Virus record (IMG/VR): IMGVR_UViG_3300030430_000208
Coordinates: 22,869-48,705 of that record
Length of the DNA: 25,837 nt
Strand: one strand, 5' to 3'
From: a virus
Shown: positions 2,043-8,374 of the stretch, one piece after another
How positions within the stretch are numbered: position 1 is the first letter of the stretch
Layout: every line of letters starts with the position of its first letter
Translations under genes and position numbers: made by a program
The notes under the pieces: model-generated
What the model saw: the letters and a program-made list of their open reading frames with translations, nothing else
The model's database searches: none
Told to the model about the DNA's origin: nothing

Positions 2043-2989
2043 AAGTTAATGACTTATTAAAAGAATACTATTTATCGTTTGAATACAATAACTTACGAGA
2101 AGAAACTAAAGCACAGTATAAATACTTTTTAGGCATAGTTTGTTCTACAAGTGTGGTTGATGGCAAGAGTTTAGGAACGTATAAACTCTCTAGTCTAACA
2201 ACTAAACTTGCCAAGTTGTCTTATAACAAATGGTGTGAGAGAGGTGTATCATTAGCTAATCATCTCATGTCTGTAATCAGAGTATTGCTTAATTACGGAA
2301 TAAACATGGAGCATTGTAATATGAATCCATTTAGTAATATTAAGAAACGTGTCGTTGCACATAGAAAAGTTGTTTGGACAAAAGATGACGTTATCAGGTT
2401 TCTTGATATTGCATACTCTGACTTCAAGACTAGAAGTTTAGGACTGATTGCACAGATGGCATACGAATGGTGTCAAAGAATAGGGGATATGAGACTTTTA
2501 GAGTGGTCTAATCTTGATTTAGACGAACAACGTATGCAAATTGAGCAGTCTAAGAGAAGAGCAGAAGTATTTTTACCCATATCAGACGAGTTAAATGAAA
2601 TGTTATTACAACAAAAGAATGATTATGGGTTTCAAAAGTATGTAGCACCTCGCCCAAGACCATTTAAGGGGTCATACAAGCCTTATTCACTAACAAAGCT
2701 ACCAATCCTAGCTAGAAAGGTTATGACCTCTGCAGGACTCTCTAATGAGCTACGATTAAGTGACTTACGTAGAACAGGAACAGTTGAAATGGTTGATGCA
2801 GGTGTATCTATGGGTAATATTATGTCAGTTACAGGACATGCTAACCCACAATCTGTTAAACCTTACATGAAGAATACCTTTGCTAGTGCTAATTTAGCAT
2901 TGCAAACACGTAGAGGGTTGACAGAATCTGAAAGTCATGATAAAAGCATATTAAATGCCAACAAGAAGGATGTAATATATAATATATGA
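2039..2989 (+). CDS. int: Tyrosine recombinase / phage integrase
   Basis: A 316-aa site-specific recombinase. The N-terminal core-binding part is residues 1 to about 105; the catalytic part is about 112-295. Visible active-site residues are Arg147 (CQRIGDMRLLEW), beta-hairpin Lys172 (QSKRRAEVFLP), box II LSDLRRTG with Arg244, His267 (VTGHANPQS) and the nucleophile Tyr276 (KPYMKN). The box II position that is His in the common H-x-x-R motif is Ser241 here. The enzyme suggests a temperate lifestyle or a temperate ancestor. The gene is sandwiched between coding sequence on both sides (ATGA overlaps at each end), so no attP region sits beside it. Its ribosome site is weak and coupled translation from the preceding ORF is likely. 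Confidence 0.93.
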   Translation: MKVNDLLKEYYLSFEYNNLREETKAQYKYFLGIVCSTSVVDGKSLGTYKLSSLTTKLAKLSYNKWCERGVSLANHLMSVIRVLLNYGINMEHCNMNPFSNIKKRVVAHRKVVWTKDDVIRFLDIAYSDFKTRSLGLIAQMAYEWCQRIGDMRLLEWSNLDLDEQRMQIEQSKRRAEVFLPISDELNEMLLQQKNDYGFQKYVAPRPRPFKGSYKPYSLTKLPILARKVMTSAGLSNELRLSDLRRTGTVEMVDAGVSMGNIMSVTGHANPQSVKPYMKNTFASANLALQTRRGLTESESHDKSILNANKKDVIYNI

Positions 2990-3762
2990 TTAATATATAT
3001 GAATATGTTAAACAGTTAAATGTAGAGAATGGCACATCACAAAGGATGACATGTCCTATGTGCAAGTCATACAAAACATTTACTGTTACAAACAACATGG
3101 GTTCTTTACTTTGGAACTGTTATAAGGCATCTTGTAATGTCAAAGGTAAAAGTCGTGTTCATTTATCTGCAGAGGATATTCGTAACATGAGAGAAGTGTC
3201 CCAAGTTGGGACATCGTTTGAAATGCCTGAGTACATTACACCACGTAACCAAGACATAATGGATTGGTGTAACAAGTGGGGTCTAGATGTAGACGCTTTA
3301 GAGTTACAGTACGATGTCAAAGAACACAGAGTTGTTTTTCCTATCAAAGAAAATGGCAGAATTGTGGATGCTACAGGTAGGTCTATCCTAAACAAACTTC
3401 CTAAGTGGAAGAGGTATGGTTCTTCGGACTTGCCTTTTTCATTTGGTTGTGGTAGTATCGCAATAGTGGTTGAGGATTGCATTAGTGCAGGAGTGATTGG
3501 TAGTGATGTATATGTTGGGGTAGCTGTGTTGGGTACATCATTATTAGATTCTCACAAAACATTCCTGTCGCAATTCTCAACTGCAATAATAGCACTTGAC
3601 CCTGATGCACTACCCAAGTCTTTTGCTTTTGCTAAAGAGTTACGTTCACATGTCAAGGATGTAAAGATACTAAGATTAAAAGATGATTTAAAATATAGGA
3701 GACAAGAAGACTTAAATAATTTGAAACTATTAACCCCAAAGGAGACACAGTTATGGAATTAG
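2986..3762 (+). CDS. DNA primase (zinc finger + TOPRIM)
   Basis: Makes RNA primers for replication. Residues 20-52 form a zinc-binding domain with Cys23, Cys26, Cys45 and Cys50 (CPMC, then CYKASC), as at the N-terminus of T7 gp4. The TOPRIM domain follows, with the conserved glutamate Glu163 (VVEDCISAG) and the D-x-D pair Asp205/Asp207 (IIALDPDALPKS). At 258 aa it ends where T7 gp4 would continue into helicase; here the helicase is a separate gene overlapping by 10 nt (3753-3762). The start overlaps the integrase stop as ATGA (2986-2989). AAGAAGGA at about 2962-2969 is somewhat far from the ATG, so coupling to integrase translation is likely. Confidence 0.92.
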   Translation: MINIYEYVKQLNVENGTSQRMTCPMCKSYKTFTVTNNMGSLLWNCYKASCNVKGKSRVHLSAEDIRNMREVSQVGTSFEMPEYITPRNQDIMDWCNKWGLDVDALELQYDVKEHRVVFPIKENGRIVDATGRSILNKLPKWKRYGSSDLPFSFGCGSIAIVVEDCISAGVIGSDVYVGVAVLGTSLLDSHKTFLSQFSTAIIALDPDALPKSFAFAKELRSHVKDVKILRLKDDLKYRRQEDLNNLKLLTPKETQLWN

Positions 3763-4976
3763 CATTACTAAGAAGTTTGATGGAGAAATCATTTTATGAT
3801 GACCATCGTGGAGCAAAATGTCCTGATAGACTATTTGCCAAAGACAATAGAAAGATTAAGCAGTCTATTGACAAAGCCATGAGCACTTATGAAAGGAGTG
3901 TTACACCTGATGAGATTGAGGCTTTGTTCATGTCTAACAATCCGACACTTACGACTGCACAGAAACAAGCCTATTCTAGTTTGTTTAGACAGATTAGAAT
4001 GGAACAACCTTTAGGAGAAGACATTGCACAAGAAGTATTATCAAAATTATTTCAACAAGTTGTGGGTGAGGACATTGCCAATATTGGCTTTGATTATGTT
4101 AATGGTTCTCATTCCTCTTTAGAACCTATACGTCAGATACTAGAGCAGTATGGAGATGACTTTACACCTAACCTAAATGTGGAGTGGGATGATATTGAGA
4201 TAGATACCTTACTAGCCAAGAATGATTTAGAAGCACGTTGGACTTTCAATGTCCCTACTTTAACGAGACAAGTTGATGGTATAAACTCAGGTCACTTGAT
4301 AGAGATAGGTGCTAGACCAAACACAGGTAAGACTAGCTTTCATGCAAGTTTGTTAGCAGGTCAAGATGGTTTAGCACAACAAGGTGCATCGTGTATTATA
4401 CTTTGTAATGAAGAGGGTAGCCACAGAGTAGGTGCTAGATATCTTACTGCATCAACAGGTATGACTATGAGAGAGATAAAGGAGAATCCTAGTCGTGCTA
4501 GAGATTTGTATGCACCTATTAAAGATAATATAAAGATTAAAGATGCAACAGGTCGTGACATGTCATGGGTTGAAAGTGTATGTAAATCGTACAAGCCTGA
4601 CATAGTTGTTCTTGATATGGGAGATAAGTTTGCACGTACAGGTGGCTTTGCTCGTACTGATGAAGCATTGAAAGCTAATGCAGTTCATGCTCGTATGATT
4701 GCCAAAGAACACAAGTGTGCAGTATTTTATATGTCACAGTTATCTGCAGATGCAGAGGGTAAAGTATTACTTAATCAGTCAATGATGGAAGGTAGTAGAA
4801 CAGGTAAAGCAGCAGAAGCAGATTTGATGATACTCATTGCAAAGAATCCACCACAACAAGGTGCAGAAGAGGAAGACCTGCAAAGACATCTCAACGTGGT
4901 TAAGAATAAACTTACAGGATGGCATGGTGTTGTTCATTGTAACCTTAATTATAAAATAGGTAGATACGAAGTATGA
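3753..4976 (+). CDS. Replicative DNA helicase, DnaB-like
   Basis: A RecA-fold hexameric helicase expected to unwind DNA 5'-3' at the fork with the adjacent primase. Residues 1-115 are helical and resemble a DnaB-type N-terminal domain. The ATPase core shows Walker A GARPNTGKTS (186-195), a catalytic-type Glu (CNEE, 219-221), Walker B PDIVVLD (282-288), the sensor Gln in FYMSQLS (Q329), and a C-terminal KNKLTGWHG...YKIGRYEV strand as in gp4/DnaB helicases. AAAGGAG (3738-3744) sits 8 nt before ATG 3753. Stop overlaps the endonuclease VII start as ATGA (4973-4976). Confidence 0.93.
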   Translation: MELALLRSLMEKSFYDDHRGAKCPDRLFAKDNRKIKQSIDKAMSTYERSVTPDEIEALFMSNNPTLTTAQKQAYSSLFRQIRMEQPLGEDIAQEVLSKLFQQVVGEDIANIGFDYVNGSHSSLEPIRQILEQYGDDFTPNLNVEWDDIEIDTLLAKNDLEARWTFNVPTLTRQVDGINSGHLIEIGARPNTGKTSFHASLLAGQDGLAQQGASCIILCNEEGSHRVGARYLTASTGMTMREIKENPSRARDLYAPIKDNIKIKDATGRDMSWVESVCKSYKPDIVVLDMGDKFARTGGFARTDEALKANAVHARMIAKEHKCAVFYMSQLSADAEGKVLLNQSMMEGSRTGKAAEADLMILIAKNPPQQGAEEEDLQRHLNVVKNKLTGWHGVVHCNLNYKIGRYEV

Positions 4977-5425
4977 TTGAACAGTTTGAACTCTTTAGTG
5001 TAGTAGAGGAGATATGTGAAGATGGGTTGGTCTGCATCAAGTGTGATATAAGACAACCTATTGAAAACTTTCAACAGATGTCCTACACGAAGTCAGGAGA
5101 AGCAGAAATAAAAAGGACATGTAGGTCATGTCAAAAAGGACATAGGCAAGTTATTGCTACGTTAAGAAAACAAAACGTGTATCCTGACAAGAATTATTGT
5201 TGTCCTATTTGTAAAAGAAGTATAGAAGAGGTTAATAAGTATAATCAAAAGTTGTTAGGCACATGGGTTCTTGACCATTGTCACGATACAAATACTTTTC
5301 GTGGTTACATATGTAAACATTGTAATGATGGATTGGGTGGATTTAGAGATGACTTGACAACAATAGAAAGAGCAGTTATATATCTAAAAGAACATAAGGA
5401 AAGATTAAATGAAGTTAACGATTGA
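4973..5425 (+). CDS. Recombination endonuclease VII-like nuclease
   Basis: A 150-aa HNH/beta-beta-alpha-metal nuclease of the T4 endonuclease VII family, which cuts Holliday junctions and other branched DNA before packaging. It has an N-terminal zinc knuckle (CIKC at 21-24 with CRSC at 50-53) and a second Cys set (CPIC with CKHC). The catalytic block is WVLDHCHDTNTFRGYICKHC followed by NDGLGGFRDD, matching the family pattern LDHDH...RG.LC..CN.GLG.F.DD. The next gene starts 17 nt before its stop. The same phage also carries a T7-type endonuclease I (9313). Confidence 0.9.
   Translation: MIEQFELFSVVEEICEDGLVCIKCDIRQPIENFQQMSYTKSGEAEIKRTCRSCQKGHRQVIATLRKQNVYPDKNYCCPICKRSIEEVNKYNQKLLGTWVLDHCHDTNTFRGYICKHCNDGLGGFRDDLTTIERAVIYLKEHKERLNEVND
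5354..5382 (+). promoter_or_regulatory. Possible sigma70-like promoter before DNA polymerase
   Basis: TTGACA (5354-5359), a 17-nt spacer and TATATA (5377-5382) lie inside the endonuclease VII gene, 27 nt before the polymerase start. The -35 is perfect but the -10 matches TATAAT at only 4 of 6 positions. In an AT-rich genome this can be chance; position is the main support. Confidence 0.3.
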
Positions 5426-7424
5426 TATAGAAAATACAGTAACTAAAAGAGATGGCAAGATGTATCTTGACCCATATGAACCAACTAATAAATTAGTTAT
5501 GGTGGGTTGTCGTGATGACAATGGAAATGAAACTATATATGATATGGATAGTGGGTTTGTTGATATACAAGACATGTTAGATAAAGCTACAGTTCTTATA
5601 GGACACAACATAACATATGATTTGATGTGGTTGTGGGAGTGTGGTTTCAAATATGATGGTGTTATATTTGATACTATGTTAGCAGAGTATGTTTTAAGTA
5701 GGGGTAATCCTGAGAAGTATTCTTTGTCATTAGAAGCCTGTGCAGAAAGACATGATTTGAATACAAAGAAGCAAGATACATTAAAAGAATATTTTGCTAA
5801 AGGCATGGGTGTGGATGAGATACCAAAGGATGAGTTAACAGAATATTTAAGAGCAGACTTGAGAGCAACGCAAGAGTTATGTGATAGCCAATACAAACAA
5901 TTAATTAGCACATCCCTTATGGATACAGTAATACTTACAAACAAAGTTGCTATGACTCTAGCTAGAACACATAGGAATGGTTTTAAGGTAAACCAAGATG
6001 TCCTAGAATCTGTAAGAAAAGAGTTTGAGTCTGAAAAGATAGACATAGAAAAAAGATTGAAGAAACAAGTTCAAGACTTGATGGGTGACACACCTATAAA
6101 TTTAAATAGTCCTGAACAAATGTCTTGGGTTATATATAGTAGAAAGCCTAAAGATAAAGCACTATGGGCAAACGAGTTTACACCTTACATGGATAAGGAT
6201 AAGTATAGAGAGTGTGTATTAGAGCATTCCAATCTTGTTTACAAAACAAAAGCTATAAAATGTAAAGACTGTTTAGGTGCAGGATATGTTAGGAAGACAA
6301 AGAAATCAGGAGCACCTTACGCAAAGCCAAGCAGATGCCACACGTGTAATACACAAGGATATTTATTTGAACCAACTAATAAAGTTGCAGGTTTAAAGTT
6401 CTCTGCACCTACTGCTAAATGGGTTAGTGCAAATGGATTTACTATAAATAAACTTTATCTTGATACATTAAGAAATGTAGCTAAAAGAAATAATATGAAA
6501 GATGCAGAAAACTTTTTATCTGACTTACAGAGATTGTCTGCATTGGATACTTATCTCTCTTCTTTTGTTGATGGTATCAAATCACATATAAAGCAGGATG
6601 GCATGTTACATGTCAGATTGTTACAACACAGAACTGCAACAGGCAGATTTAGTGGAGCAGACCCTAACATGCAGAACATGCCTAGAGGTGGTACGTTCCC
6701 TGTAAAGAAGGTATTTGTTTCACGTTGGAAAGGTGGCAAGATTCTAGAAGCAGACTTTGCACAGTTAGAGTTTAGGACTGCAGCCTATTTATCACAAGAC
6801 GAGGTGGCAATAGATGAAATTAAAACAGGCTTTGACGTTCATGCTTATACGGCTTCAGTTATTTCAGCTTCGGGTCAGAGTACAACTAGACAAGAAGCTA
6901 AAGCACATACCTTTGCTCCGTTATATGGTGCGACTGGGTTTGGAAGAACAGAAGCAGAAGCGAAATACTACCAAGACTTCACGAAAAAATACAAAGGCAT
7001 CGCACTTTGGCATTCCAGATTGGCTAAAGAAGCTCTAGAGAAACGTAGTATTACAACACCATCAGGCAGACAGTTTAGTTTTCCTGATGTTGAAAGGAGA
7101 AGAAGTGGTTCTGTATCACATTTTACACAGATAAAAAATTATCCTGTACAAAGTTTTGCAACTGCAGATATAGTTCCCCTTATTCTTGTTCACATGGAAC
7201 AGAGATTAAAATCACTAAACTCTTGTATTGTGAATACAGTACATGATTCTATCGTGATTGATGTTCATCCTGATGAAATAAATAAAGTTGTATTTATAAT
7301 TAAAAGTATTAATCAGGATATTACTAATATTGTGAATACACAATTTGGTATTGATTTTAATGTGCCTCTTTTGTTAGAGTCAAAGATAGGAGACAACTGG
7401 CTTGACACAAAAGATATTGCATGA
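5409..7424 (+). CDS. Family A DNA polymerase with inserted DnaJ-type zinc ribbon
   Basis: The 671-aa replicative polymerase. The 3'-5' exonuclease part (1 to about 165) has Exo I TIDIE (Asp6, Glu8), Exo II GHNITYD (65-71) and Exo III YLRADLRAT (146-154). A zinc ribbon of the DnaJ central-domain kind follows: CKDCLGAG (285-292) and CHTCNTQG (310-317). The polymerase core has TGRFSGADPNMQNMP (411-425), motif A EADFAQLEFR (Asp449), motif B RQEAKAHTFAPLYG (Arg494, Lys498, Phe502, Tyr506) and motif C VHDSIVID (His612, Asp613; Ser replaces the usual Glu). Phe502 aligns with E. coli Pol I Phe762. The DnaJ-like insert is the hallmark reported for the SAR116 phage HMO-2011. AAGGAAAG (about 5396-5403) precedes ATG 5409. 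Confidence 0.96.
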   Translation: MKLTIDIENTVTKRDGKMYLDPYEPTNKLVMVGCRDDNGNETIYDMDSGFVDIQDMLDKATVLIGHNITYDLMWLWECGFKYDGVIFDTMLAEYVLSRGNPEKYSLSLEACAERHDLNTKKQDTLKEYFAKGMGVDEIPKDELTEYLRADLRATQELCDSQYKQLISTSLMDTVILTNKVAMTLARTHRNGFKVNQDVLESVRKEFESEKIDIEKRLKKQVQDLMGDTPINLNSPEQMSWVIYSRKPKDKALWANEFTPYMDKDKYRECVLEHSNLVYKTKAIKCKDCLGAGYVRKTKKSGAPYAKPSRCHTCNTQGYLFEPTNKVAGLKFSAPTAKWVSANGFTINKLYLDTLRNVAKRNNMKDAENFLSDLQRLSALDTYLSSFVDGIKSHIKQDGMLHVRLLQHRTATGRFSGADPNMQNMPRGGTFPVKKVFVSRWKGGKILEADFAQLEFRTAAYLSQDEVAIDEIKTGFDVHAYTASVISASGQSTTRQEAKAHTFAPLYGATGFGRTEAEAKYYQDFTKKYKGIALWHSRLAKEALEKRSITTPSGRQFSFPDVERRRSGSVSHFTQIKNYPVQSFATADIVPLILVHMEQRLKSLNSCIVNTVHDSIVIDVHPDEINKVVFIIKSINQDITNIVNTQFGIDFNVPLLLESKIGDNWLDTKDIA

Positions 7425-7459: not shown

Positions 7460-8374
7460 ATGAATGAAGTAGTAACGATAAATACAGAGAGTTATGCATC
7501 TATGGCAAAGGCAATGGGTTTGCCTGTCAATAGTGGTGAAAGAAAAGTTAATGTTCTAAATAGATTTAGAATATGGCATGAGCCTACAATGGGCATTGGC
7601 ACTGTGGATGGTAAAGAAGTTAAGATGGAAGTAATAAAAGGTGGATGCTACAGACTTGAAAAAGTTGGAGATGTTCCTATATATTACTTTGCAGAGAAAG
7701 CTAAGTTTAGACCTTTTTTACAGAGATTCATGTATAAGAGATATTATCAAAATGATAAGAAGTATTGTAAGTCTATAATGGCAGACACTTTGAGTATAGA
7801 TTTAAAAGATGACTATGGTACTTTTAACTGTGGAAAACCTACAGGTTATGTTAAAGATTATCAATCTTTACCTGAGTCAACTAAAAATATAATCAAAGCA
7901 GTTGATAGATATAGGGTTGTCTTTGGTATAGTTGAATTAGAAAAGCCTGTAAAGTTAGTTGATGGCAAAGAGGTACAAGAAGATTTACCACCTTTTCCTG
8001 CTATATGGGAAATGAAAGACAAGAATACTTTTAAGTCTATGGGTGAAATATTCTCTAAGTTTTCTAGGATGGAGAGACTACCACTTCAACATAATATTGA
8101 ACTAGATGAATCTGAAGTGTTCTATACTAACAATGCAGGTACAGAGTTTTTTAAACCTACATTTAAAGTTGATTATACTACTAAGATGGATATATCTGAA
8201 GAAGACCATAAAACTTTTGGGGACTTTTTAGATTGGGTCAAAGCTCATAACGATAATATTCTTAAGAAGTGGGATGAGAGAGTTGCAGAGAAACAGGATG
8301 AAGTATCAGAAGAAGATGCAGAAACTGTTGAGCAGTTTATAGATGTTGAACTAGAATCTGATGAGAAGCAATAA
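7460..8374 (+). CDS. Candidate single-stranded DNA-binding protein
   Basis: A 304-aa protein with no motif I can name securely. Most of the chain is mixed and charged with many aromatic residues (CYRLEKVGDVPIYYFAEKAK; RFMYKRYY). The last 25 residues or so are strongly acidic (SEEDAETVEQF...ELESDEKQ). An acidic tail is typical of phage and bacterial SSBs such as T7 gp2.5, and the place between polymerase and exonuclease fits a replication cofactor. SSB is therefore an inference from tail and context, not from a recognised fold. It has its own promoter-like site and a strong ribosome site (AAAGGAG, 7444-7450). Its end overlaps the next gene by 14 nt. Confidence 0.85.
   Translation: MNEVVTINTESYASMAKAMGLPVNSGERKVNVLNRFRIWHEPTMGIGTVDGKEVKMEVIKGGCYRLEKVGDVPIYYFAEKAKFRPFLQRFMYKRYYQNDKKYCKSIMADTLSIDLKDDYGTFNCGKPTGYVKDYQSLPESTKNIIKAVDRYRVVFGIVELEKPVKLVDGKEVQEDLPPFPAIWEMKDKNTFKSMGEIFSKFSRMERLPLQHNIELDESEVFYTNNAGTEFFKPTFKVDYTTKMDISEEDHKTFGDFLDWVKAHNDNILKKWDERVAEKQDEVSEEDAETVEQFIDVELESDEKQ

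Follow-up and report, generated by a model that had tools for sequence, protein, structure and literature searches.

A DnaJ-like ribbon in the predicted H1-H2 thumb loop of an HMO-2011-type phage DNA polymerase: a possible zinc-stabilised arm for gripping DNA

What does a pair of DnaJ-like cysteine knuckles do inside a phage DNA polymerase, and where in the enzyme are they situated? The question is raised by a stretch of viral DNA (the "window", meaning all of the DNA that was analysed) of 25,837 bases, taken from a virus record 55,310 bases long. It encodes a putative integrase, primase, DnaB-type helicase, endonuclease VII and family A DNA polymerase, followed by an unassigned conserved gene, a PD-(D/E)XK nuclease, endonuclease I and ribonucleotide reductase. 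Judging by the gene order and the best matches, the phage is of the HMO-2011 type. Phages of this kind form one of the most widespread groups in the sea, with the polymerase serving as their marker. A "partial DnaJ domain" has been published as diagnostic of their polymerases, with HMO-2011, CRP-1, CRP-2, CRP-3 and HTVC033P as carriers (PMC9038755, PMC6918029) and two CXXCXGXG motifs as the rule of inclusion (PMC9038755). The module itself is not new, and the window represents one more member. In this respect an earlier note on this DNA was right to call the module known from HMO-2011 and unexplained, the published hallmark having been given without a mechanism. The open-access literature (subscription papers were beyond reach) yielded no mapping of the module to the H1-H2 loop, no ligand-switched form and no exchange of alleles.

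The polymerase gene occupies positions 5409-7424 on the plus strand and encodes a protein of 671 amino acids, in which a 3'-5' exonuclease, a thumb and a polymerase domain can be distinguished from the open reading frame and from Pfam. The Pfam scan places PF01612 (3'-5' exonuclease) at residues 53-160 and PF00476 (DNA_pol_A) at residues 365-665 with an E-value of 1.6e-52. The protein is 62% identical to the polymerase of CRP-345 and 61.5% identical to the HMO-2011 DNAP, and it has the composition of an HMO-2011-type enzyme: a family A polymerase with a 3'-5' exonuclease and a two-knuckle DnaJ-like module between the two. An AF2 model built from 47 sequences has a mean pLDDT of 88.4; its best PDB matches are the Pol I enzymes of Bacillus and E. 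coli and the apicoplast polymerase.

Several features of the surrounding region deserve mention. The gene at positions 4973-5425, which resembles endonuclease VII (PF02945, E 2e-13), is situated between the helicase and polymerase genes and overlaps both. It is possibly a mobile HNH-type endonuclease. In HMO-2011 and HTVC033P the helicase gene directly abuts the polymerase gene, with no endonuclease VII-like gene between them. Positions 2039-2989 encode what looks from its sequence like a tyrosine integrase, presumably in the same place as the integrase of other HMO-2011-type phages, and a C5-cytosine DNA methylase (PF00145) is encoded upstream of the replication genes, at 75-1256. The integrase-like gene and the methylase suggest that the phage is possibly temperate. 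Polymerases of the HMO-2011 type were also found on marine MAG or single-cell contigs (L196, L197, L198, L203, L204) assigned to Flavobacteriales, Neomarinimicrobiota and Euryarchaeota. Contigs of the same name and length are listed under two taxa, so that most of them are probably of phage origin and wrongly binned, and they give no host.

The ribbon is encoded by positions 6261-6359 (plus strand), corresponding to residues 285-317, CKDCLGAGYVRKTKKSGAPYAKPSRCHTCNTQG. The putative ligands, C285, C288, C310 and C313, were assigned from conservation, from the linkage of D310 with H321 and from PF00684. The earlier note had described CKDCLGAG and CHTCNTQG at residues 285-317 as the DnaJ repeat. 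The coordinates are exact, and the first motif conforms strictly to CXXCXGXG. However, the second is CXXCXTXG, a looser form than the published rule for the HMO-2011 type asks for, and its glycine is kept in 112 of 162 relatives and lost in about a third.

The alignment contains 162 distinct full-length polymerases, and all of them have the ribbon module (CKDC...CHTC in the window), down to about 37% identity. C285, C288, C313, G292 and G317 are unchanged throughout, whereas columns 286 and 287, next to the ligands, are among the most variable. The ribbon is thus not a chance occurrence, since its ligands and glycines are invariant while such neighbouring columns vary greatly. One of the locus searches relied on a peptide pattern that shares residues with the first knuckle, which is a source of bias; no such pattern was used in the larger searches. 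Position 310 is Cys in 155 sequences, Asp in six and His in one, so that each of the four ligand positions is occupied in every sequence by Cys or by another zinc-capable residue. His321 accompanies Asp310 in 6/6 cases and Cys310 in 0/155. Both Asp and His are zinc-binding residues, and neither can take part in a disulphide. As these are the only replacements of C310, the pattern of substitution points to a metal site rather than a disulphide, and a redox switch based on disulphide formation is disfavoured for the same reason. Zinc is the probable occupant, judging from the ligand pattern. The relatives having Asp or His at position 310 would fall outside the published two-motif rule. A comparison of the ribbon sequence with the PDB gave no match.

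The ribbon can be placed relative to the thumb helices. Helix H comprises residues 196-225 (positions 5994-6083) according to the AF2 secondary structure and a table of helix spacings. It is followed by the NLNSPEQ motif and helix H1 at residues 231-243 (6099-6137), which are equivalent to Klenow residues 579-591. The motif aligns with NLSSTKQ at Klenow 579, as part of an ungapped match at Klenow 577, EFNLSSTKQLQTILF. In the model H1 itself spans residues 235-243. The proximal part of the arm, residues 248-284 (6150-6260), ends in a strand at 278-284 and is among the most variable stretches in close relatives. A return strand at residues 318-326 (6360-6386) flanks the ribbon on the other side, and the thumb continues with helices H2 (348-360) and I (364-393), encoded at 6450-6587. 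All of these features are on the plus strand, and the mean pLDDT of the region is about 79-92.

The T7 polymerase was brought into register by an ungapped alignment of Klenow 577-624 with T7 332-379, which has a score of 39; none of 2000 shuffles reached this value, the best scoring 28. A plain MAFFT alignment misplaces T7 here and was left out of the site placement. The distances from the start of helix H to H1 and from H1 to H2 are 40 and 113 residues in the window polymerase, 40 and 126 in HTVC033P, 104 and 27 in T7, 35 and 28 in Klenow, and 34 and 35 in the polymerase of phage StenR_269. The H-to-H1 loop, which is where T7 has its thioredoxin-binding domain, is thus short in the window. 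The alignment and the helix spacings therefore put the T7 loop, whose basic residues are K268-K304 (PMC5984650), before H1 and the ribbon after it, in the H1-H2 loop of the modelled thumb. The earlier note had placed the ribbon close to the T7 loop. The model and the alignment agree that it leaves from the thumb, but the site is a different one, and an insertion at the T7 thioredoxin site itself is ruled out by the ungapped alignment and the spacings. A search by protein family found no thioredoxin, glutaredoxin or beta clamp in the 55-kb record of the phage.

Two further observations concern StenR_269, a Stenotrophomonas phage. A gene for a thioredoxin-domain protein is located just upstream of its family A polymerase gene (L087, 170-436), and the polymerase has neither the T7 loop nor an arm between H1 and H2.

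The loop between the two knuckles is strongly basic. It contains the turn RKTKK (residues 295-299, positions 6291-6305, plus strand), identified from its conservation and charge. Each of residues 296, 298 and 299 is a basic amino acid in 96% or more of 46 representatives, and the pattern of the turn is KKxGxP. The loop formed by residues 293-309 has a mean net charge of +5.2 among the relatives, with a minimum of +4, whereas the loop between motifs II and III of DnaJ has a charge of +1 in E. coli and, counted from alignments, of 0 to +2 in the other DnaJs aligned. The entire H1-H2 arm, 113 residues long in the window, carries a net charge of +11 there and of +6 to +14 in four phage isolates, so that an enlarged loop is combined with a conserved basic patch. 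Of the 23 columns conserved as basic in the whole protein, 3 fall within the ribbon, which is no significant excess (Fisher p 0.11) and counts against a role in gripping DNA.

On the preferred explanation, to which a probability of roughly 0.45 is assigned, a basic arm in the H1-H2 thumb loop, with the ribbon as its zinc-stabilised tip, holds on to the upstream duplex in cis. The tip of the thumb would hold the primer-template upstream of the active site, with the conserved Lys/Arg turn (residues 295-299, together with 309) following the backbone of the nascent duplex. Zinc, in place of a hydrophobic core, would keep the small hairpin rigid. Affinity for DNA and processivity would thereby be raised in cis, with no need for thioredoxin. 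The contact with DNA and the effect on processivity are inferred. What the computation shows is the presence of the module, the conservation and switching of its ligands, its H1-H2 site, the excess of positive charge, and the lack of a T7-type loop and of any phage-encoded thioredoxin or clamp. The site, the charge and the ligand pattern speak for a cis grip, as do the basic turns of ribbonless phage arms at this site, the processivity loop of Pol theta and the effect of truncating the Pol I thumb, all described below. However, a pure grip on phosphates does not predict the variability of the arm and ribbon or the swapping of the second knuckle.

This variability is considerable. Between close relatives few parts of the enzyme diverge as much as the arm and ribbon, with amino acid differences of 0.15-0.23 as against 0.055 in the polymerase domain. 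Their four-fold silent difference is mildly raised, being 0.31-0.35 as against 0.24. In one subclade, pairwise DNA scans of near-identical relatives delineate an allelic block at residues ~302-325 (positions 6312-6383, plus strand). Within it the DNA identity falls to about 50%, with sharp boundaries, inside replication regions of 4-9 kb that are otherwise about 95% identical. In two pairs (L010/L004 and L023/L018) it is the sole block below 75% in the shared region, and other pairs have a few more. The block comes in two forms, one with Cys and one with Asp plus His, and both occur on several backgrounds. When the ribbon region is left out of the tree, the Asp forms fall on scattered branches, and six changes in all are needed at site 310. 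It appears more likely, from these sequences, that the Asp form was moved by recombination than that it arose repeatedly. Over all 246 close pairs, no other place in the gene drops to low identity as often as this block, which does so in 25 pairs as against at most ten elsewhere. No such hotspot is visible in 56 independent pairs, and the exchange of second-knuckle alleles is therefore claimed for one subclade only. Sharply bounded alleles of the second knuckle within that subclade are what is new here. If the swapping is confirmed, alleles would be exchanged inside a replicase, which is unusual.

Such variability is better explained than by a cis grip if the variable faces of the zinc arm dock onto a partner. 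According to this alternative, the main rival, which is possible but doubtful, the arm would bind a protein, be it a host factor, the candidate SSB of the phage or the primase/helicase, and tether the polymerase in the manner of the T7 loop. The divergence of the arm and ribbon and the exchange of the second knuckle as bounded alleles are in its favour, as is a conserved neighbouring gene whose product has an acidic tail in most members. The partners of the T7 loop are thioredoxin, gp2.5 and gp4. That this loop also binds an SSB (PMC7699545) is a further point for docking. On the other hand, the phage has no thioredoxin, and no phage-encoded partner co-varies with the ribbon, because pairs with different alleles are about 95% identical elsewhere in the replication region and the tails of their candidate SSBs are nearly the same. 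A host-encoded partner would fit best. Docking is compatible with a cis grip if the basic turn touches the DNA and the variable faces touch the partner.

The neighbouring gene is located at positions 7460-8374 (plus strand) and encodes a protein of 304 amino acids. AF2 predicts a beta-rich core and a disordered C-terminal tail that is mostly acidic. Its relatives adjoin the polymerase gene in many loci and are annotated in the records as hypothetical or FliD_C. The AF2 model has a pLDDT of 82.9. Its matches in BFVD include three annotated phage SSBs, at weak E-values of 2e-3 to 2e-2; no sequence family named the protein, and a search of the PDB gave nothing significant. The protein is a candidate ssDNA-binding protein and a possible partner in the replisome. 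Its tail is nearly the same beside the C310 and the D310 forms of the polymerase. This speaks against the candidate SSB as the partner that selects the ribbon alleles, since it does not change with them.

An unlikely extension of these ideas is that the zinc arm serves as an exchangeable module with many variants, the alleles of its second knuckle being recombined between close relatives, among them a form in which Asp replaces Cys and a His compensates. The reason would be that selection on this exposed face of the replicase keeps changing, driven by a partner encoded in the host or by a host defence that senses the replicase.

The same drift would be tolerated if the knuckle were purely structural, stabilising a long surface arm with no part in gripping DNA or in docking. 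The high variability outside the ligands and the basic turn is consistent with this, as is the concentration of the hotspot in one subclade and its absence from the 56 independent pairs. However, the ribbon is kept with its conserved basic turn in all 162 relatives, even though the polymerase of StenR_269 and the Klenow fold do without one, which makes a purely structural role rather improbable.

A role in primer hand-off or lagging-strand synthesis, in which the ribbon, by analogy with the zinc domain of the T7 primase, would touch the primase or the short RNA-DNA duplex, is very improbable. The primase and helicase are separate genes in this phage, the ribbon is situated near the upstream duplex, and the T7 primase zinc domain docks in the polymerase channel (PMC9841435), all of which would suit such a role. 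However, the phage primase (ORF 2986-3762) has Cys pairs of its own close to the N-terminus.

The likeness to DnaJ is limited. PF00684 (DnaJ_CXXCXGXG) matches residues 280-320 with an E-value of 4e-4 and 21.0 bits, below the curated cut-off of 32.7, and it matches 44 of 47 diverse members at E<=0.01. The match spans positions 13-54 of the 65 in the profile, that is, the central pair alone, corresponding to motifs II and III of DnaJ and to one zinc site. A complete domain has four CXXCXGXG motifs and two zinc sites. The ribbon has two motifs, and no J domain (PF00226) is present in the 55-kb record. The two motifs, the sub-threshold score and the missing J domain rule out a full DnaJ domain. 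The published discussion goes no further than a remark on DnaJ in lambda replication (PMC9038755), and a J domain is not always needed for DnaJ-like zinc proteins to act (PMC5818400). Nevertheless, a true DnaJ domain that recruits the host DnaK by analogy with lambda, or a thiol-disulphide oxidoreductase, is scarcely tenable despite the PF00684 matches, given the points just listed, the inability of the C310D/H forms to make a disulphide, a loop far more basic than in the DnaJs sampled, and the case of ZnJ2, which has all four motifs and no J domain and for which no cooperation with DnaK was seen (PMC5818400).

The other HMO-2011-type polymerases share the polymerase family, the module and its place between the exonuclease and polymerase domains. 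Motifs II-III of the E. coli DnaJ cysteine-rich domain (1exk) likewise form two CXXC(X)GXG-like knuckles, spaced 22 residues apart as against 25 in the ribbon. However, the ribbon has one zinc site instead of two, lacks an accompanying J domain, and has a linker charge of +6 as against +1.

The thioredoxin-binding domain of T7 gp5 is, like the ribbon arm, a large insertion with basic residues at the tip of the thumb in a phage family A replicase. It differs in being inserted before H1, in lacking zinc and in requiring host thioredoxin; the two insertions flank helix H1 and are not homologous. The suggestion in the earlier note that the ribbon is a processivity or docking module, a functional analogue of the T7 loop, nevertheless remains reasonable by analogy.

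Arms at the H1-H2 site are also found in ribbonless phage polymerases. Seventeen of these, from phiKMV-like Autographiviridae, Zobellviridae and similar phages, were taken from annotated phage records; scans of IMG/VR for ribbonless relatives gave almost nothing. Their H1-H2 segment is 66-152 residues long where measurable, the H-to-H1 values of MEP402 and Kleb146024 in the spacing table being artefacts of the pattern used. They have no paired CXXC, but all 17 contain a conserved basic glycine turn, [SAGT]G[KRAIP][NKR][KAM]Gxx[KR]. When the profile of this turn was compared with that of the ribbon turn, the hhalign probability was 2%, and 7 of 200 column shuffles were as good. The site is the same and the chemistry appears similar, and the arms are not taken to share a common descent. 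The attractive notion that the zinc arm is an elaboration of the ribbonless arm is unsupported by the profile comparison. Several polymerases of the Zobellviridae type and their relatives (L085, L086, L212, L220) are encoded by two genes, the break falling between thumb and palm active-site motif, sometimes with a small ORF between the halves. The comparison suggests two alternative sites at which the thumb of phage family A replicases is enlarged, before H1 as in T7 or after H1 as in the HMO-2011-type, phiKMV-like and Zobellviridae-type enzymes, of which only the former is well studied.

The importance of the thumb for processivity is known from other family A enzymes. Truncation of the thumb of E. 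coli Pol I lowers processivity and fidelity, as Minnick 1996 is cited in PMC10061031. In LcPol theta, insertion loop 1 (residues 2288-2317) is situated between the H1 contacts T2272 and D2275 and the H2 contact K2322. It was reported to be important for processivity, and deletion of the loop or changes of its Lys/Arg residues lowered the activity (PMC9841435). By helix order alone, this loop resembles the ribbon arm in belonging to the H1-H2 region of a family A thumb; it is also basic and has a role in processivity and DNA binding (PMC9841435). Unlike the ribbon, it contains no zinc, is disordered in the structures and belongs to a eukaryotic repair enzyme. The H1-H2 placement thus exchanges the analogy with a chaperone for a more concrete one, namely a processivity arm at a site that is important in Pol theta.
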